Assembly: GCA_008802785.1 (NCBI GenBank) | Contig: VUYT01000032.1 | Coordinates: 149,398-213,397 of the forward strand | Reading direction: 5' to 3' | DNA: 64,000 nucleotides | From: Symmetrospora coprosmae | Taxonomy: Eukaryota; Basidiomycota; Cystobasidiomycetes; Symmetrosporaceae | Part shown: positions 869 to 64,000 of the stretch, piece by piece | How the letters are laid out: each line of letters starts with the position of its first letter | How positions within the stretch are numbered: position 1 is the first letter of the stretch | Program-made: the position numbers and the translations under genes | Notes under the pieces: generated by a model | Database searches by the model: none | Told to the model about the DNA's origin: nothing | What the model saw: only the letters and a program-made list of their open reading frames with translations

Positions 869-2587
869 GGTGCGCCCTCTCCTCCTCCTCCTCCTCTCTC
901 GTTCCCTGTCTGCCTCTGCCTGCTTCCTTGCGCCCGGAGAGTGCGGCAGATCCGACGAGGGTGAAGACGGGACACACGGAGCTCTCTGGACCAAAGCAGG
1001 AGCGAGACGACGACAAGCCGGGCAGATGGAACCACTCACTGTCGAAATCAAAAGCAGAGGGGCCGCACTCCTCGTTCGTTCCTTCTCTGCGGGCGGGCAC
1101 GCTGGCACCCCCTTTCCTCTTCCTTTCTCCCTCTGCGGTCCTCCTGAGCCAGAGCCAGAGCAGCGCGCGCGTGCGCAGGCCAGTCAGAATCGTAAAGCGG
1201 GAGAGAGGGGCACAGAAACCCGGACGGCATTGGCAATACGGTCGAGAAATGCGGGATTGCGCGACGATGCAGTGATGGATGGAAGGTGATGGCAAGGGAT
1301 GTCGTGTCAGCTTTCCTTCACATTATGTTCGACGTCGCCCAGCGGTGTCTCCTGCCCGCTGTCGCCTCCCCAACGCACCTGACGGGGGACGAGGTCTGCC
1401 CTGCAAGCTGCCCTGCTGCTGCTACACAGTGTCCAAGCTGCCTGCGCGTGGCGACGAGTGTGGTCGTATAGACGCTGCTGCTAGTGTGCGACGACGCGTC
1501 CGCGGCAGTCCCTCCTGGCTGCTTGCTTGCTTGCTTGTCCTGCTGCGCTGACAGGACCGTCGCGGATGGAAAGTGCAGGATCCACCCAAAGGACTGCACA
1601 GCGAGGAACGATGCTGACGTGCTGCGACTAATTCTGCGCAGAGTAGTCTGCCCCTGTCTCCCCTCTCTGACGTGCAAGTGATGTGGGAAGGAGGGCAGCC
1701 AGCCCACTTAACCCGTCTCTGCGCCCTTCCCCCGCGACTGCTCGAGTGCCGCCGCCTCCTCCCCGCTACCGCCGCCGCGTGCGTGCCTCTCCGCCCTGGC
1801 AGAATTGAGACGCGTCTCAAACGCAAAGTGGCCATGCGGAAGACAGCGGCAGCAGCTACATACATACAGGCGGACTACGGTACACATCACTACGTTGTCT
1901 ACGATCTCACACATCTGGGCTACCCCCTCTCCCCTGCTCTTCTCCAGCAAGGTCTTCGAGCTGCATCATGACAGGACGTTCACGACGCGTCGTTCCGCCT
2001 TTGGCTCTTTTTCGCCACCGCCGCTTCCTCGTCAGACTTCGCGCCCACCGCTTCTTCGCCGGGCCCCGTTGTTGATGGTAAACAAACAACAACAAGGGCC
2101 GATGACAGGACGGATGTTTGGCGATGCACTGGCCTCTCGCAGCGCCTTCGTCTGGTCATTGCCACGTTTTGCGAATGCTCGGAGGGTTGGAGGGTGGATG
2201 GCAGCTGGCCGGGGAACGATCAGGGTGAAGGGGATTGACGAAGCTCAAGCAGTCTTTGCGACGAGTGATCATCCGGATGTGCTTTCGGGCGCAACTTAGC
2301 TTGTACACAGCGAGCATGGCATTATGGTATCGTCGTTATGATCAGGTGGTGCTAAACAGTCGTGAGCGAGACGTGGTTGACTACGACGTTCATTGAGGTC
2401 TGACGCGGCGAAGCGTAAAGAGGCCTTGGTGCCGGGAGCTCCACATCGAAGACAGCTCAGTAGCCAAGCGGATCCATATGCGGCATGTGCATCGACGGAT
2501 GGACCAAGTGCTCGTCTGCCAGACCGCGATGCGAGTGAGGGATGTCGGCTGCTTTTCAGCGTCCAGCTTACCTGTCCTTCATCCCCT
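869..2587. other. Long intergenic region upstream of the partial gene
   Basis: About 1.7 kb without a convincing gene. It contains a CT-rich microsatellite-like run near 876-900 and several overlapping open frames on both strands (for example 822-1295 minus and 837-1289 plus). These have arginine- and serine-rich translations typical of random frames in GC-rich DNA. It is most likely the promoter and 5' UTR of the minus-strand gene starting at 868. Confidence 0.5.
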
Positions 2588-4934
2588 TCAAACGCTTGAC
2601 TCCTGTTCCGACTCACACAGGGATCGCTCGTAGAGAGCGTCCGGACCATTCAGGGGAACATCGAGATCCATGAGCTCGTTGAAGGTGGCCGAGCTGAACA
2701 GAGGCGACATCATCGGAGAGCCGATGTGATTCATCGAGTCGAGACCCGAGCCGAGGCCGTGCATGCCGTGCATGTGGTTCCCAAACAGGGCCTGTGCGAA
2801 GAGAGCCTGATCATTGATCTGTTGAGCGGCGCCACTGACACCGACGCTAACTTACCCCGTGCGTGTGCGATGCACCGAAAGACATGGGCAGTGCTTGGTG
2901 GGCGAGGCTGTCCTGCAAGCGCATCTGGACGAGTGAGGCGCAGAATCAGCATTTGCTATGCGGCCCGTCCCTAATTCTCAACAACTCACACTCTGAAGGG
3001 CTGTGTTGTTGTGCCGCCTGACGTCTTGCTCCTTCAGCGCGGCGAGCCGCTCCTGGACCTGCATGTCGAGCATGGCCTCCTGGCCGACCATCCCAAGCGG
3101 CATTCCCGCCCCAATGCCGTGTCCCAGGGCGTGCGGGAGAGCGCCCAGCATGCCCCGGTGCGGAAGCATGGACGCAGCGTGGGCGTGAGACTGGAGATGG
3201 GCGAGGTCGCGCGCCTGGTACGCTGCAGCTGTCGTGTGCTGCAGCATCCGGATCCGCTGCATCATCACGGCGTTCTCCTGCGCGCGCCTCGCAGACCGCT
3301 GCGCCCGTCCCGCGACCGTCTCGAGCTCCTTGAGCAGTCGCGCGTCGTCGTCCATCCGCTGCTCGAGCCTGTCCTGCTCGCTGCGCAGGTGAGCAACCTC
3401 ACCCTCGCGGATCCGCTGGTCCATCGGTTTCGCATGCCTGCATGTGGGTCCACACAGCAAGCAGCGCAGATCCGAACGCAAATGGACGACGTCAGCCCCG
3501 TCATTATATCACGAGGTCCAGACGCCGCCTTGCTGCAGGCGTGCGGTCTTCCGCCGTCACTCACCAGGCCCTGGCGCGCACAAGTGGTGCCGTCATGGCT
3601 GCTTGTCTTGCCGGGAACTCGTTCCCAGCGCTACTGTGATGTACCGCAATGGTAGGTAAGAAGCAGAACACCGCAGCCGTCCGTGACTGTCGGCTGCGAG
3701 CACATTCCCCGACTCTACTGGGAACCCCTGTTTGGGCGCCCGACGGCCCGCTCGCGGAGATTCATGGCCCTACCAAAAGCGGAGATGCTGGCGAGAAGAT
3801 CACACGTATGCGTTGCAAGCAGACAAGAACAGAGGCTTTAAGGATAGGCAGCTACACTCGAGAGATAGGAGTATGTAAACGGGCTGCGCGCGACTGTGGT
3901 CGTTGAGCTGAGCGTCCGTCAGACGAGCTCATATTTCGATGGAGGCACGTCGCCCAGAGACGACAGCCGGGCTGATAGAGCCGTTTCAGCCTCGCGCTAT
4001 GTGTGTGCATGCATGTTCCGATGACGGGGACCCTCACTGCGCATCAGGGGTGAGGTCCAAGGGCGTTCAAGAAGCCAGCTCGCGCGGCCAATGATCGCCT
4101 AGATAGCCAGATCGAGGTGTAAAGACAGTTGCTGATGCCGCAATGTACGGTGACTGAAAGCGTGAAGTGACTCAGCCTTGTCTCAGTGTTCGGGAAACGC
4201 CGAAATGGCTCACGTAGGGATTATCGACCAGGTTGGTTATTTGCCGAGGCATCATGTCGCATCCGCGCAAACCTGGATGGTCCGCAAACAGGGATTCACG
4301 TCGCAACCTTGTCGACTGCTCCACCATGCGCCGGCCCTGCTCGATCTCGGCCTGGATGGATGTAAACGTGGCCCGTGTCAGTACCGATCTGGTACGGCTC
4401 TAAGTAGACCACCACAGCTCTGGGTTATCTCCCTAGCGCCAGAGAGTACGCACAATGGCGAGATCCCTTTCCACTGTCCTGTTCCGCCGCATCTCCTATT
4501 CCCGCCAAACCATGTGCGCGTAGCCGCATCTCCTGGCCGGCTGGAAGAGCTGACTCCGACCTCCGTCGGTCGGCTGCGAACTGCAGCTGATTCGGCATGA
4601 TTAAATTATGTAGTCCGGAAGACATGTGTAGGCGATGGTCGTACATGTATGCGCCTGGGTGGGATGGAGCAAAGGGCTGCGCATATGCGCCCCGCATCGT
4701 TATTGTTACCCCTCCGAGTGAGTGCCTCCGATGCAAGCGATCTTCCAAGTCGAGTGCGGCCAGGTGCTGGCTCTGCAGCTCGATGTTCCGTACGCGGTTC
4801 AGCATCTGTCGCTCGTGCCTGATCTGCTGGTAGGCATCATACCGTTCGAATGCCATGGCGGTGTCGAGCTCCAGCAGCTGCTGGTCATACGACTTGGCCT
4901 GCCTGGATGGGGCGTGGGAGCGTTGGCAGGTCAT
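2588..4934 (-). CDS. Multi-exon coiled-coil protein of unknown function
   Basis: Several minus-strand exons with coiled-coil character lie in order. One near 4920-4600 (includes QQLLELDTAMAFERYDAYQQ and MYDHRLHMSSGL), one at 4351-4214 (AEIEQGRRMVEQSTRLRRES), one at about 3440-2990 (heptad-like, rich in Arg, Glu, Gln, then Met/Leu/His-rich), and a last exon ending with the stop at 2588 (Met- and Gly-rich, ends SLCESEQESSV). The donor GTGAGC at 4213 and the acceptor before ATCAATGATCAG near 2825 are clear; other junctions are not resolved. The true start may be further upstream: a possible first exon begins at an ATG near 5333 (MFGKPEPEDRQRF). I do not recognise the family. It could also be two neighbouring genes. 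Confidence 0.45.
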
Positions 4935-53478: not shown

Positions 53479-56814
<3,336 letters not shown>

Positions 56815-57115
56815 TGGTCTGCGTTTCACTGACTTTGTTGTGGTAATGCCAGTTGCGTATGGTGTAGGAGCGCTGTAATTGGCAAGAACGTACAAGAGCC
56901 TTGGTTTGCAACGGTCTACTTTCCCGATAAGCCCGAAAGCACACTCTTATTTGTCCACCACACGCGTTCCTATGATAAGATGCCCATGCACTAATGGCTA
57001 CAGACCATACGGTCTTTCTTCGGGTAGCCGGACCAGGCGAATCCACCCCCGACCGCGAGAGCCGGTGGTAGACACCACTGTAGAATGGGCCAGGGCCCGG
57101 CTACCACGACTCCTC
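56815..57115. other. Convergent spacer between XPB and the Fanzor-like gene
   Basis: 301 bp between the stops of two convergent genes. I looked for inverted terminal repeats against 60575-61116 and found none by eye. No gene is recognised. Confidence 0.45.
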
Positions 57116-60100
57116 TTACATTGTATCAAGGAAGTACTCTATCTGTTCATCTAGCGTTGCATTTGCGTGCAATCCTGCATGCCTATCGGTCAGATACGGG
57201 CCAGTGAGCTCTTCCCACATGTTCCAAGCTGGAGGTCTACCGTAGTGGAAGATTTCGAGAAAGACCTGGTAGATATTGCGTGCGCCGAGACGATCTCTGT
57301 CCCAGATCACACCGACATCATCGTTCTGGTGAGGGGCCTTTGGCCGAAGCTGGTCGTCATTGGCGAAGTTGATCTCCTCCAAGCCTGTGCCATGCGTCCT
57401 GCCATGATCGTCAGCGGAGTAAAGGAGGTGATGTGCGGGTCGCCCTAGAAGAAAAGCGATGCATTGGTTGGTCAGCATATATGCCCTACAAGCGAGACGG
57501 CAGCGCAGACTTACATCGAGCCCCAGCAGGCACGGTACCGTGATTTCCGAGTGGGGTAAGGTTGTGCTGTGCGGCAGCGTCTTGCGAAGTATCGCACGAC
57601 ACGCGCACGCCATGGTGGCCGGCCTTGGGACGCGTCCTCCGGTTGACCGTTCCCCTAGCAGGAATGATTCAGCCGCGATGCTCTTGACTGGCAAGCTGCC
57701 TGGACTGCTCAGGTGTGGTTACTTACTGGTGATCTGGCATAGCGCATTCGATCCCGCGCCTAACGAAACGCTTCACTGTCTCGACTGCGAAATGCTCGCC
57801 TTCTTCTAGCAGAGGTGGCAGAGGGCCCTCGCCGGATCTGCTCTCGAGAACCGGGTAGGTTCGAGGGTCTATCTGGCTAGTGTGCTTCTCGTTGACTAGA
57901 ATGGTTGTGAACTCTTGATTTGCGGACTCGACTGCCAGACTCTGTGAGTGCGATGCGCTCCCTACGTCAGCTCTTGACCTTTCACTCTGACATAGAATCA
58001 ACGACTCACCTCCGGAGAGAAGCCTGAGACAAATCCACGCCCGCTGCCGACAGACGCGTCGCCGTAGACGGCTATTGGTCTGGGCTTCTTGTCAAGGTTC
58101 AAAGGACCGCCACGCGCATCGTAGCGATCCCGGCGTCGCTCCCGACTCTTCTTGGTGTGTCGGAGCTTGAAGCCCTCGCCCATGAACTCTTTGTGCGAGA
58201 TCGCAAAGTTGTAGTACTGAACGAGCTTGGCCTTGTACGACTTGATGTTGTTGCTGATGGAGAATCGGTCTGCCGCGCTCCTGTTGTGGTCGTTGACCCA
58301 CGCAATCGCCTTGTCCTGCAGGCTGTTCATCATCCGGAAGGCGGGAGCCGCCTCCATGATCGTCTTGCCATGAACGCGCGCTTCCGCCTCTCGAAGGAGA
58401 CCTTCCACCTCGTTCCAGCTGAGCTCGTTGGGGCCAACGTTCTCCCGGTTGATCGCCTCGCGGTGCTCGTCCTTGTTCTCCTTCCAGTTTTTCAGCGTTT
58501 TCGATTTCAGGAGCCGGTTCGTTGTCTTGCGCGTCACCGCATGAAGACGGTTGTTGCAGCGGTCCATCTCTGCGCGCCATTGCTCCGACCTCACATCTTC
58601 CGCCAATGTCTGGTCTGCTCGGATTGCCCGCAGGTTGGCCAGGCAGTCATCGATAATGGGGACGACGTCGGCCTTGATGCTGTACGTAGCGTTGTGTCGG
58701 CCGCCATCCATGGCGATGAGCCCGTTGTCCAGCGTGCTCTCGTGGAACTGTGGCTTCTTCTGTAGGTTGACGAGGGAGCCTTTGACCTACGTGCCTGGGA
58801 TGGGCTCGTCTGGACCTCGCACTCGCCGGCCGGATGCACCGAGTTTCCGCTCACTCTTGGACGGCGCACGATCTGTGCGCAGAAGGAGTAAGCCTATGTT
58901 GTTTTCTATGCTCTAACAACGACCTCACCTTTGAGAACGAATTTCGCCAGCTCTTTCTCTTCAAGCGTGTCATGATTCGGATGCAGGGCGATGGTGTACG
59001 AATGGCTGTAGCCATCTGAGTTGAGCAGCTTGGCGCACGGGACGAGGTAGTTGTAGCGCTTGTAGTGATGAGGACCGTACAGCTGATTCTTGATGCGCGG
59101 TCGCGTACCGTCGTCGACGTCGCCGGGAGCAAGGTAAGGCCGAGTGTCGGCATGGCCAAAGAAGCGGTGCAAGATCTCGTTGTAGCTGAAACAATCGAAA
59201 GTTCGCGAGTTGAACGGGCGCAGGGTATTTGGGGCAGCCTGGAGACGCACATTGACTTAGCTATGGACTTCAAGCGCGATAACCGCCGGTGCTCACCTCT
59301 CTAGGTATTTGAAACTTCAAAGAGTCAATGGCAGGCAAGACTCTCCCGTTCGGCATCGGCAGAGGACGCAAAGCAGGTTGCACGACCAGAGCGAAGAAAG
59401 TAGCCGCATCATACTTGACCATCGATTTCTTGAACTTTTTGTGCAGAGGGCACACCTTGATGACCTTCGCATCCATTTGCTGCATGCGCATGGATGCCCA
59501 GACGAACAAGAGGTATGCTCTATCACACAAGGGCTTTCCTGCTCCTGCTCGCATGACTCTCTCCCATGTCCCAAAGCGCCTGTCCCTATAGATGCTTGAG
59601 ACTGATGGGAAGGCGTTGGCCCCAATCATGGCAACCAGGTCGACCACGAATGGGTGGGTAGAGAGAAGGATGTAGCGCAAGAGAACATGCACTGGTCGGA
59701 GATGCTCCAGCCATATAGTCTTCTCGGCGAGCGTTTCGGCAGTGAAGACCGGATGATCCACGTCCCAATCAAGCTGAGCGACGTGACGTGGGCTGAGAAA
59801 GAACGCCTTCGTGCGCGCCAGGAGAGGGCCAGGCAAATCCGGCAGCAAATCGTCCTTGAGCGCTGGCAAGAGCTTGTTGAGTGTGATAGCAACGTGGCTC
59901 CTGCCGAACTGCCATGCGTTGACAGCGGCGGTGGCCGCTCGCGCATTGCACAGACCGCTGTACGTGCGTCCTCCTTCTTTGTCCCAGATCGCTGTATAGT
60001 CGGCGAGCAGGTTGCCGTCGTGGTTATGAAGCACGCTCGGGCCGATGTGTTCGGTGACCATCCGCTGCATGAAGCCATTGCGGGGGTTGGGCGCATCCGG

Positions 60101-60574
60101 TCCTTCAGCGCATGCAAGATAGATCTGGCGCTGCGTTTCGCGCTCGGACGGGGAGAAGTGGCCGGTCAAGCCGTCCGCGAGGCTAACCGGGAACGGCTCC
60201 TGCGCTTCGTCGAGCTGAAAGGTAGGTGGGAGAGTGACGACCGGGCGAATGTTCCATATCTGTCCGGCCACGCGACGCGGTTGCTGGCCGTCTACGGCTG
60301 CCAGACCTATGGCGAGGAGGCCAGCTCCCGCGCCCAGCATGGTGGCCGTATGTAGGACCTGCCCTTTGAGGTGGTCGAGCCGCGCGGCAGTTATGGCATT
60401 GAAGCTCAAGATCTTGACAATCTTGGTACTCTCGTCATCGTTGAAGTAGGTGGTGTTCGGTTCCAGTGGCCGAGTCGGGCCGGCTCGTGGAGGCGCGTCC
60501 GTGATGGCCTGTCGCACACGACCAAGACGGACGTTGAAGGTCTTTGTTGGACCTTTCGGAGCTCTAGGCGCCAT
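57116..60574 (-). CDS. Fanzor-like RNA-guided-nuclease-family protein (eukaryotic TnpB/OMEGA homologue)
   Basis: Proposed exons 60574-59297, 59238-58929, 58779-58010, 57941-57727 and 57695-57116 join in phase to about 1050 residues. The C-terminal half has the split RuvC layout of Fanzor/TnpB: RuvC-I LIAMDGGRHNATYSI (Asp about 554), the block KKPRPIAVYGDASVGSGRG typical of Fanzor, RuvC-II TTILVNEKHTSQ (Glu about 804; canonical DExxTS), and RuvC-III VIWDRDRLGARNIYQVFL (Asp about 992; canonical WNRDxNAARNI) followed by GRPPAW. The N-terminal half (about 530 residues) is unassigned and longer than in most described Fanzors. The usual CxxC zinc ribbon between RuvC-II and -III is not clear. An in-frame TAG at 58787-58789 is avoided only by the chosen acceptor. 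No transposase gene is next to it. Family call is by motif memory, not search. Confidence 0.72.
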
Positions 60575-61116
60575 GCTACCTGTACGGAGAACACGAATGG
60601 TCAGCAGATGTGGAGCGGCGCCGCGTTAAAGGCACAGAGAGACCCACCGCGTAGAGGCTAGCCTAGGTCCAGGCCAAGATTGAGGGGGTTGACGGGCAGA
60701 TCGACAACTGACAGATAAGAAGTTGGTCAGGCCTATCCTGGGTGCAGTCATTGGAGGTATCGCCGCTCACTTGGTCTGCGCAGGAGCAGGATTGGCGGTC
60801 CGGTCCAATTTGCGAGGAGCCAGAAGAGCAGCTCGGCTAAGATGCTCCAGTGGCCCAATGAAGGCACCACTGAAGCTCAAAGCGCGAGCGCGAGAGCTGC
60901 GAGGAAGATTAGGTTAATGAGAGCGCGGGGAGGGTTGGAAAGGCTGGTGGCAGCAAATTCGAAGGTGGGACAGGCTAAGGGCAAGCGGTACGCGCGGTGG
61001 GGGATGGGGAGTGATGAGGAGAAGAGAAAAGAGAAGGAAACGAGCGCTGGATGCGCTTCTTGTACTTGTGAATCAGCTTTTATCAATTGGGATGCTTGTG
61101 TCGGGTTGCAGACAAT
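60575..61116. other. Spacer between the Fanzor-like gene and the TTCGAA-rich region
   Basis: 542 bp with no supported gene. It should contain the Fanzor-like gene's promoter. A purine-rich stretch (gagaagagaaaagagaaggaaac) lies near 61018-61041. No terminal inverted repeat is recognised. Confidence 0.4.
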
Positions 61117-62160
61117 GTGAGCTTTGCGCGGCTGTCACAGCTCGGCACTTTCGAAGCTGATTCGAAGCTGTTCGAAGGGCGTCTCGAAGCTCGAATGGGT
61201 CTTCGAACCCTTCGAGCTGCCTTTCGAACCTCGAAGCGACGCTTCGAACCTCGAATTCGATTCGAGTTCGAACTTCGAATCACGGCCTCGAAGACCTCAA
61301 GCTCCGCCTCTCCCGCTTCGGTCTTTGCGCCACCGATACGCTCACATCGCATGGACAATCTTCTGGCCTCTCCACTCCTTTCGAACCGCTTCGAACCGTT
61401 CGAGGCGCTCGAGCCCAACTTCGAAGCGCCATCGGCGCTCGGGCCTCGAGCCTCCAACGGTCCGCACGGACCATCCCTCGTTCCCTGTCTTGGCCGCCCA
61501 ACGGCAAGACGTTAGAATGCACGGACACCCCTTACGCACTGTTCTTTGGCTCTAACATCTTTCCTCTTTGTTCCCGTGCGACTTCGAAGCACAGCCTCCC
61601 CGCTCAGTCCTCTTTCCACTTCTCTACAAGTAGCACGATGCTGTACCATACTCTCTCCTCTTCTCTTCGTGCTAATATTATCAATCGAACCTACTCTAAA
61701 GGTTTGAGTGAGCCTTCGAAGTCGTTTCCGACCTTCGAAGCTCAGGGTTCCTTTCGAACTCAGCGATATCCACCACCCCTCACTTCGACTTCGGTTCCTC
61801 CGTCCTACCGACACAGTAACCCACGTCAATCCACGTCTCCGAAGCGTGGCCAACCCTTTCGACCTCCTTTCGAAGTCGTTAGTCCCTTTCGAACCTCCTT
61901 CGAACTCCCTTTGAACTTCGAAGTCACTTCGAAGCTCGAATTTCACTTTGAACTACTTCGAATCAGTTCGAACCACTTCGATACACCTTTCAGCAACCCC
62001 TTCAACCTCTCTACAATACATCCGAGCACCCTCCTTCTTCCTTCACTATCCACAACCTCCCCTTCCTCCGTCGAACCTCGATTCGAAGTTCGGGGTCACC
62101 GTCGAACTTCGAATTCGAGATTCGAAACTCCTCTCTCCTCGCTTCCGCTCACACGATATT
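61117..62160 (+). repeat. TTCGAA-dense region, probably LTR/leader of a Ty3/gypsy-like element
   Basis: Roughly 25 copies of the palindrome TTCGAA, plus many one-base variants (CTCGAA, TTCGAG), lie between about 61150 and 62135, in two clusters (61150-61440 and 61580-62135). One copy per about 4 kb would be expected by chance. It ends about 20 bp before the gag start of a gypsy-like element, and a few copies continue inside that gag (near 62694, 62727, 62767). A possible LTR start is TGTGAGC at 61119. I could not define LTR ends or a primer binding site. Confidence 0.6.
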
Positions 62161-62180
62161 AGCACCCCCAACGTGGTACT

Positions 62181-62808
62181 ATGTCACACCCAATCATTCG
62201 TAACTCCGCGCGCACTGCAGAGCAGCTCCGCGCCGAGCAAGAGGAACTCGAGCAAGCTCGAGTTGCCGAACTGGAAAGACTTCGCCTGGAACAGCTCGAA
62301 CGAGAACAGTCCGAACTGTCCCAGCGCGACACACCCGGCCTCGTCAAAGACGACGAAGAAGACGACGACGCCTCCGAAGGCCGTCGAGCCTCGACTCCTG
62401 GACAGTCGGCTCCGGTCCAAAGGCCTCCTCCCTCAATTGAGGAGATGCTCCGCGTCCTCGTCCAAGCCACCTATCAAGACAGAACTCAACGCTCACCACG
62501 AGCCGATTCTGAGCCCATCGTCGTCCAAGACACCAAGGGCATCAACGCAAAGGCACCCGATACTTTTTCGGGCAAGGACCCTGCTGATCTCAGCAAGTTC
62601 CTCCTATCTTACCGGCATCGCTGGCGACTGGTTCGAGCCATTCACCGACCTGGACGTCGACCCGAACAAGCCTATCCTCACCGACTGGCGAGCTTTCGAA
62701 GCCGAGATCACAGGCATGTTCGGTGATTCGAACGCCGAAGCCACGGCCGAATACAAGATGGATACGCTTCGAATGAAGGCCGACCACAATGTCGCTGTCA
62801 GCACGTAA
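62181..62808 (+). pseudogene. Broken gag of a Ty3/gypsy-type LTR retrotransposon
   Basis: The first frame starts MSHPIIRNSARTAEQ, has a Glu/Leu/Arg coiled coil and reaches the gag core KAPDTFSGKDPADLSKFLLS near 62610. The core then continues in another frame as SSYLTGIAGDWFEPF and DWRAFEAEITGMFGDSNAEATAEY to the stop at 62808. Typical gag has about 40 more residues between these blocks, so a deletion has removed them and shifted the frame at the TCCTCCTATC junction (62600-62612). The capsid C-terminal part, protease and polymerase are absent; the sequence breaks off at a putative copia LTR. The element is not functional. Confidence 0.75.
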
Positions 62809-63047
62809 GGCTCTTTGGGCGCAATAGGCCCGAGCTCACCCCCTGTCTGGGAGCTGCCCGCTTGACGGGCGGGGACCTCATAGGGGCTGAGGCCCAAAGA
62901 GATGCACGAGCGCACCGCATGCAAGAGCCAAAGCTCTGCATGCGCTGCCAAGAGAAGGGAGCTGCCCAAGAGGGAGCTGGCGTCAGCCTGCCCCTCTCTT
63001 CTCTGTATCGTAGCATCACCTCTGCCAGGAATCGGTTAAGACTCACA
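62796..63047 (+). mobile_element. Candidate 5' LTR of a Ty1/copia element inserted in the gypsy gag
   Basis: The gypsy gag similarity stops near 62800 and a copia primer binding site begins at 63056. The 252 bp from TGTCAGCACG (62796) to ACTCACA (63047) have the TGT...ACA ends usual for copia LTRs and contain no gene. The left boundary could also be at the TGT at 62790. The matching 3' LTR lies outside the window, so the limits are inferred. Confidence 0.5.
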
Positions 63048-63055
63048 TCTTGATC

Positions 63056-63069
63056 GGTTATGAGCCCTG
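63056..63069 (+). other. Primer binding site complementary to the initiator tRNA-Met anticodon arm
   Basis: GGTTATGAGCCCTG is the reverse complement of CAGGGCTCATAACC, which as I recall is the anticodon stem-loop sequence of fungal tRNA-iMet. Several copia elements prime reverse transcription with a half-tRNA cut in this arm. It lies 8 bp after the candidate LTR end, as expected. The ATG inside it (63060) is also the start of the gag frame. Confidence 0.65.
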
Positions 63070-64000
63070 GCTCTTCCTCTGCCCCATCCACATCAGCTCT
63101 ACCGTTCAGTACCTCTACACCTCTGTCACCTACCTCGCCGACTGTCGGCCCTATCCCTTCCAGCTCCATTCTACCTCCTTTGCCGCCATCGCCGAAGATG
63201 GCGTCGCACGACAAGCTCGGCAGCTTCAACCTGCCCGACTCCGCCAAATTCGACGGGTCCAACTTCGATAGCTTCAAGCGTGCTTTCCGCTTGATGCTGC
63301 TCCTGGCCAACAAGCTCTATGTCATCGATTCGAAGGAGGTTACCCCCGAGGGCACCACCCTGCAGGACAAGCAGCGCGACAGCCTCATTGTCGCGCTCGC
63401 CCTGTCGATGAACATCAATGATCAAGCCAAAGGCATTATCGTCAGCTGCCAAGACGACGGCACCAAGGCCTGGCACGCCTTCGTCGACCACTACGGCAAG
63501 GTCGATCTCGGCACGACGCTCACCCTTGCCAGCGAGCTGGGCCATCTTCACTGGCTCGGCGGGGACTACGATTCCTTCACCACCTTCCTTTCGCGCTTCG
63601 AGGCCATCGTGGCCGACCTTCAGCAGCGCGGCTTCCCCTACGAGGACTGGTACCTTGCCATCCTTCTCATCGGCAAGGTGCCCATCGACTTCGTCAGACA
63701 CCAGATCAAGCTGGAGAAGCCGCAGGAGGTCAAGCTCAAGGACGTTATCAGCGTGCTGTCCTCCAACATCAACTTCGAGGAGAGCGCCAAGACGCAGACC
63801 GCCCTCTACGCAAAGGGCCCGGCCCATGCGCCTTCCTCCGACAAGATCCGCGAGTGCCCCCACTGCCGCGACGTTTTGAAGAAGGCACACCCAAAGTACA
63901 TCCATCCCGCCGACCGCTGCTATGCGCAGTTCCCTCACCTGTATGAAGAGGACAAGAAGCGAAGGGAGAAGAGGCAGAAGAAGGAGAAGGAGGACGATAA
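63060..64000 (+). CDS. Gag of a Ty1/copia LTR retrotransposon (runs off the right edge)
   Basis: Open frame from ATG 63060 (MSPGSSSAPSTSALPF; an alternative internal start is MASHDKLGSF at 63198) to the window end, 313 codons without a stop. A Ser/Pro/Thr-rich start leads into a copia-type Gag core: KFDGSNFDSFKRAFRLMLL, KQRDSLIVALALSM, DGTKAWHAFVDHYG, FTTFLSRFEAIVADLQQRG and ILLIGKVP. It continues to a Cys/His motif (CPHCRDVLKKAH, HPADRCYAQF) usual for nucleic-acid binding in these elements and a Lys/Glu/Arg-rich stretch. The frame is intact so far, so this copy may be recent. Protease, integrase and reverse transcriptase would lie beyond 64000. Confidence 0.85.
   Translation, partial: MSPGSSSAPSTSALPFSTSTPLSPTSPTVGPIPSSSILPPLPPSPKMASHDKLGSFNLPDSAKFDGSNFDSFKRAFRLMLLLANKLYVIDSKEVTPEGTTLQDKQRDSLIVALALSMNINDQAKGIIVSCQDDGTKAWHAFVDHYGKVDLGTTLTLASELGHLHWLGGDYDSFTTFLSRFEAIVADLQQRGFPYEDWYLAILLIGKVPIDFVRHQIKLEKPQEVKLKDVISVLSSNINFEESAKTQTALYAKGPAHAPSSDKIRECPHCRDVLKKAHPKYIHPADRCYAQFPHLYEEDKKRREKRQKKEKEDD

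Follow-up and report, generated by a model that had tools for sequence, protein, structure and literature searches.

The whole stretch of DNA analysed, 64,000 nucleotides long and referred to as the window, contains on its minus strand a gene that most likely encodes a very divergent relative of the Fanzor1 proteins, as judged from its sequence. Fanzors are RNA-guided nucleases of eukaryotes that belong to the TnpB/Cas12 lineage. An XPB-type helicase gene lies downstream of the Fanzor1-like gene in the opposite direction, and a copia-type gag is located upstream (63054-63998, Pfam E 1.1e-7). The preliminary description placed the gene next to LTR retrotransposons, and this one gag supports that placement. 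The window also includes a homologue of Mid1, recognised by Pfam, which is consistent with a fungal source. The gene has the following organization:

57116-60574, minus strand: Fanzor1-like gene from ATG to stop, six exons and 1013 amino acids in the chosen model
60574-59297, 59238-58929, 58779-58010, 57941-57727, 57654-57515 and 57444-57116, minus strand: exons of the gene
58780-58928, minus strand: intron 2 with an ambiguous junction, 149 nt long with an AAAG acceptor in the chosen model

The coding sequence begins with the ATG at 60574 and ends with the stop codon at 57118-57116. The five introns are 58, 149, 68, 72, and 70 nt long, and all have GT-AG borders. The coordinates and motifs reported previously are reproduced in the spliced protein, in which AMDGG is found at residue 552, IAVYGD at 765, NEKHTS at 803, and WDRDRL at 952. 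The GC3 of exons 1-3 is 0.68-0.79 and that of exons 4-6 is 0.58-0.63, compared to 0.65-0.78 in six long frames elsewhere in the window. The best-looking acceptor of intron 2, CACAG at 58873, leaves a TAG in frame at 58789-58787. Among the alternatives considered, an intron of ordinary length that keeps the frame open needs the unusual AAAG acceptor at 58780. An arrangement identified by eye also leaves the frame open: a 56-nt intron at 58928-58873 is followed by an exon of 18 nt and by an intron of 75 nt that ends at the same AAAG acceptor. Intron 2 may hide a premature stop codon.

Resemblance to Fanzor1 nucleases

The spliced window protein matches no Pfam model and no PDB sequence at a cut-off of E 10, and its parts searched separately against the PDB also have no match. 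Bacterial TnpB and Cas12 share the logic of a split RuvC domain with the window protein (PMC11423790 and general knowledge), but none of their Pfam or NCBIfam models matches it at the cut-off of E 10; the HMMER filters remove most matches above about 0.1. Pieces of the gene have matches below the curated cut-offs to unrelated models, namely DUF7449 in Pfam (E 0.23) and lipo_FAD_I_fam (0.077-0.08) and phageSPP1_gp7 (1) in NCBIfam. The proven Fanzor SpuFz1, represented by 566 residues, has no TnpB-type Pfam match either, and the missing library match of the window protein is therefore uninformative. The preliminary description proposed a comparison with profiles of Fanzor, TnpB, and Cas12 and regarded the lack of a significant match as a refutation; the libraries provided no significant match, which does not refute the Fanzor reading given the missing TnpB-type Pfam match of SpuFz1. 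Single-sequence structure models of exons 3 and 1 are too poor for use in a fold search, with pLDDT of 52.0 and 33.2.

The window protein was compared to a Fanzor1 profile of four sequences. Three of them have solved structures: SpuFz1 of Spizellomyces punctatus (PDB 8gkh), PpFz1 of Parasitella parasitica (PDB 9cf0), and GtFz1 of Guillardia theta (PDB 9cer). The fourth, L003, was found in viral contigs by a codon pattern for DE[YF]RTS..C..C, and its matches in the PDB are PpFz1 (3.9e-35), SpuFz1 (2.7e-34), and GtFz1 (4e-23). It is a 655-residue Fanzor1 with intact motifs, encoded at positions 1833-3797 of a 4.1-kb contig classed as viral (IMG/VR contig 3300042867_001586). Codon patterns had indicated 14 loci, from which hmmsearch with the Fanzor1 profile recovers L003 alone; two others, L001 and L002, looked like chance matches and were not recovered. 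No relatives of the window protein were detected in the searched viral contigs or genome contigs. The Fanzor1 alignment used as a query returned L003 alone from the viral contigs and nothing from the genome contigs, and L003 used as a query returned only itself.

Counterparts of Fanzor1 blocks are distributed along the window protein as follows:

58990-59028, minus strand: LLNSDGYSHSYTI, residues 497-509, a weak candidate (block score 0.2, fourth in the protein) for the equivalent of the TDG strand in Fanzor1
58676-58726, minus strand: RuvC-I NGLIAMDGGRHNATYSI with Asp554 at 58708-58706, best RuvC-I match in the protein
58052-58081, minus strand: RPIAVYGDAS, the protein's top-ranking match to the GDW/GNW block of Fanzor1
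57861-57911, minus strand: RuvC-II FTTILVNEKHTSQIDPR with Glu804 at 57890-57888, best match in the whole window
57260-57310, minus strand: RuvC-III VIWDRDRLGARNIYQVF with Asp955 at 57295-57293, found by the block chain, profile alignment, hhalign, and window scan

An ordered chain of seven Fanzor1 blocks with generous spacing has a score of 46.8 in the window protein, which none of 3000 shuffles reaches (maximum 33.9); the blocks were picked with the window protein already seen, and the shuffle test is therefore optimistic. The chained position is the best-scoring one within the protein for five of the seven blocks; TDG and RP each come fourth. In a gap-tolerant alignment, the C-terminal half of the Fanzor1 profile scores above all 400 shuffles (z 4.24). 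The N-terminal half has no detectable homology to the profile, as 79 of 400 shuffles reach its score, and the score of the whole-profile alignment is matched by three of 400. The whole-profile trace agrees with the block chain in the block preceding GDW and again from the Glu of RuvC-II onward. It places the LLNSDGYSHSYTI stretch elsewhere, misses RuvC-I NGLIAMDGGRHNATYSI, and leaves RPIAVYGDAS unaligned, so that the TDG, RuvC-I, and GDW stretches are misplaced or skipped. A conventional HMM of the four Fanzor1 proteins gives the window protein an E of 14 and ranks it 8th in a set of 1002 sequences that includes 1000 shuffles. The hhalign comparison with Fanzor1 is also not significant (E 0.058, probability 0.9%), and its top segment is the RuvC-III block.

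In six-frame scans of the whole window with four blocks, the top match for two of the four lies in this gene, and the two are in order. The DEFRTS block scores 14.9 in the gene and a nearby 13.1 at the next-best position elsewhere, and the corresponding values for WNRD are 19.3 and 17.7. The RuvC-I and GDW blocks of the gene are absent from the six best matches listed. Among 510 six-frame tiles, the best score of 37.7 belongs to the gene's own unspliced region, followed by two tiles at 31.5.

Leave-one-out block scores are 166.2 for L003, 140.7 for SpuFz1, 155.9 for PpFz1, and 57.8 for GtFz1. With the same proteins held out, the window protein reaches 48.6, 52.0, 42.9, and 49.9, respectively. 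The window protein thus appears somewhat more remote from the other Fanzor1 proteins than GtFz1, since the scores on the same blocks are 49.9 and 57.8, although the two distances are comparable.

The catalytic residues of SpuFz1 are D383, E541, and D606 (PMC11423790). In the numbering obtained from the PDB chain by subtracting the 394-residue tag (1032 minus 638), D383 falls by count in VIDPNKRD, E541 in DEYKTS, and D606 in WNRD. The motif blocks, which are a comparison of sequence alone, pair them with D554, E804, and D955 of the window protein. Fanzor1 proteins have a catalytic D, an E between strand 5 and the TNB, and a D or N (PMC11423790), and in sequence D554, E804, and D955 match these sites. 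The third residue of GtFz1 is N (PMC11423790), and variation at the third site is therefore tolerated in the family. The Asp/Glu/Asp triad of the preliminary description thus corresponds to positions in solved Fanzor1 proteins. Its reading stands in part, with support for the Fanzor1 kinship and the triad and little for the unusually long N-terminal half.

The window protein has the order of RuvC blocks and the D/E/D positions in common with SpuFz1 (PMC10432273, PMC11423790). Both proteins have the E beside TS, an HG stretch that precedes the region of the second cysteine pair, a WNRD block, and an RP near the C terminus; the last is represented in the window protein by GRPPAW after RuvC-III, which resembles the C-terminal RP motif of Fanzor1. 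RuvC-I of PpFz1, MDPGRRDLLYC, resembles MDGGRHNATYS of the window protein. The likeness to L003 includes WNRDVNGATNIY, which resembles WDRDRLGARNIY of the window protein, and the FGDY and VDEFRTS blocks. Unlike the window protein, L003 has 655 residues, an intact zinc ribbon, and a Pfam match to a Cas12f1-like TNB domain (1.5e-6). GtFz1 also retains the zinc ribbon, and its third catalytic residue is N, whereas that of the window protein is D.

Zinc-ribbon region and protein length

The unusual part of the gene lies between RuvC-II and RuvC-III, where SpuFz1 has its zinc ribbon:

57296-57860, minus strand: degenerate, expanded zinc-ribbon/TNB region, two introns included, with at most one of the four expected cysteines (C878)

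The first cysteine pair is located in EYKTSSVCPRC of SpuFz1, to which EKHTSQIDPRT corresponds in the window protein, with the cysteines replaced by D and T. The region of the second pair reads HGVRVSCDTSQD in the window protein and HGLLGCTNPNC in SpuFz1. C878 could match either cysteine of the second pair, and at most one is kept. No usable CxxC is present in any frame of 58010-57115 on the minus strand, where the sole CHLC adjoins a stop codon. By alignment, at least three of the four zinc-ribbon cysteines seem to be lost. If a zinc ribbon has been lost while the active site was kept, the protein would show how far a working enzyme can drift.

The published Fanzor motif is D-X(125,275)-[TS][TS]-XX-[C4 zinc finger]-X(5,50)-RD (PMC3627910). 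The window protein has 252 residues between D554 and T807-S808, within the motif's range, and it lacks the C4 zinc finger. R954-D955 is present, with 75 residues between C878 and R954, a distance to be read against the 5-50 of the motif with the end of the finger undefined. Because the defining C4 zinc finger was tested for and is absent, the window protein is not a canonical Fanzor.

Most Fz1 proteins have 600-700 residues (PMC11423790). SpuFz1, with a complete zinc ribbon, has 638, in contrast to the 1013 of the window protein with its degenerate one. The E and the last D are 151 residues apart in the window protein and 65 in SpuFz1, a difference of about 85. PpFz1 is a large Fanzor1 with extra length inside RuvC, like the window protein. 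However, the added part of PpFz1 is one cyclophilin-binding RuvC insertion of about 100 residues (PMC11423790) and its zinc ribbon is kept, whereas the extra length of the window protein appears to be distributed among four regions. The catalytic Asp is preceded by 553 residues in the window protein, 382 in SpuFz1, 385 in L003, and roughly 485-500 in PpFz1, the last figure counted from the PDB chain numbering with an assumed tag length. The "unusually long N-terminal half" of the preliminary description is thus better called moderately long. The more unusual feature, absent from that description, is the loss of zinc-ribbon cysteines together with the insertion in the same region.

Hairpin behind the stop codon

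A potential RNA structure is located directly downstream of the coding sequence:

57020-57109, minus strand: stable hairpin of about 90 nt, 7 nt after the stop codon, candidate guide-RNA scaffold or unrelated inverted repeat

On the strand of the gene, the segment 57119-57000 has a folding energy of -60.4 kcal/mol (z -3.83), and none of 200 shuffles is as low. On the opposite strand, the value is -45.7 (z -2.29), with five of 200 shuffles as low. The fold of 421 nt around the hairpin is unremarkable (z -0.89). In the folding scan, the segment that contains the hairpin (57000) ranks 16th of 540 on its strand, and its stem comes 6th among 54 long stems there. Neither an Rfam scan at gathering scores nor a tRNA scan found anything in the window.

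The guide RNA of SpuFz1 is structured and directly follows the stop codon (PMC10432273), which is where the candidate hairpin of the window gene is positioned. The correspondence is suggestive only, and the hairpin is regarded as a lead to a possible guide RNA encoded at the gene's 3' end. It is slightly more probable that the hairpin is unconnected to the nuclease and is either a scar of an inverted repeat or a 3' end signal between convergent genes. Stems with at least 12 contiguous pairs number 87 on both strands of the window, some of them overlapping; the XPB gene converges from the opposite side; and the wider fold is unremarkable. The position and strand of the hairpin, which match the anatomy of the SpuFz1 guide RNA (PMC10432273), argue against such an origin. 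An unrelated hairpin is compatible with the Fanzor1 reading of the protein.

Function and origin of the gene

We consider it probable that the gene encodes a highly divergent RuvC nuclease of the Fanzor1 type belonging to the fungus, and the protein probably works like a RuvC nuclease. The window protein would still form the split RuvC domain fold and bind a structured RNA derived from the hairpin directly behind the stop codon. DNA that pairs with the sequence after the hairpin would be nicked or cut. The gene probably originated as transposon cargo and now lies between the XPB gene and retrotransposon remains, without recognised transposon ends.

The SpuFz1 element has 30-nt inverted repeats and many copies (PMC10432273), neither of which was seen in the window. 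Among the 25 listed of 46 inverted pairs in 56500-64000, none makes convincing terminal inverted repeats, and no convincing second copy appeared when the gene and flanking DNA were compared with the window. Pfam identified no DNA transposase among 27 stretches that cover part of the window, five of them pieces of the Fanzor1-like gene, in agreement with the earlier remark that no transposase is visible.

It is possible, but rather unlikely, that the gene is a domesticated Fanzor1 relative with a regulatory role in binding RNA and DNA instead of cutting. The results on inverted repeats and copies within the window are in line with domestication, as are the five introns, the lost zinc ribbon, and the adjoining housekeeping gene of the XPB type, whereas the intact catalytic triad would not be needed for mere binding. 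If the gene is a single-copy host gene, it would be a candidate for addressing the open question of the function of domesticated Fanzors. Similarly tentative is the idea of a separate Fanzor1 lineage, an intron-bearing host gene in which a RuvC domain free of the zinc ribbon cuts or nicks DNA with a compact guide RNA encoded behind the stop codon. If correct, the fungus would have kept, independently of any transposon, a programmable nuclease that serves the fungus itself.

Less likely still is a decayed Fanzor1 pseudogene with a nearly intact frame, in which decay has reached the zinc ribbon and the TAG at 58789-58787 stops translation ahead of RuvC-I. The best-looking acceptor of intron 2 keeps this TAG in frame, at least three of the four zinc-ribbon cysteines are gone, and GC3 drops in exons 4-6. 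However, a frame-keeping AG acceptor is available at 58780, the three catalytic residues are retained, and the chosen introns leave roughly 3 kb of exon free of any further stop or frameshift. A chance resemblance, or membership of another RNase-H-fold family, in an otherwise unrelated fungal protein is very improbable: the libraries and the PDB offer no significant match (the lowest E values, 0.077 and 0.23, belong to unrelated models) and the HMM and hhalign scores are weak, but SpuFz1 also lacks a TnpB-type Pfam match, and the block chain, the C-terminal alignment, and the held-out scores argue against it.

Fz1 proteins are highly spread in fungi (PMC10432273). In open-licence main texts, supplements excluded, no paper was found that pairs Fanzor with basidiomycetes or Basidiomycota.

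Upstream of the Fanzor1-like gene, dense degenerate TTCGAA-rich repeats occupy positions 61150-62130, and many of them are short inverted pairs. On the plus strand, the frames of 62163-62808 look by eye like a frameshifted gag of the Ty3 type, with no Pfam match, and the plus strand of 62163-63998 possibly contains nested retrotransposons. The segment 62900-63019, just before the copia gag, has the lowest fold z of the 53.0-63.8 kb scan (-5.57 on the plus strand), and this fold could be part of an LTR.
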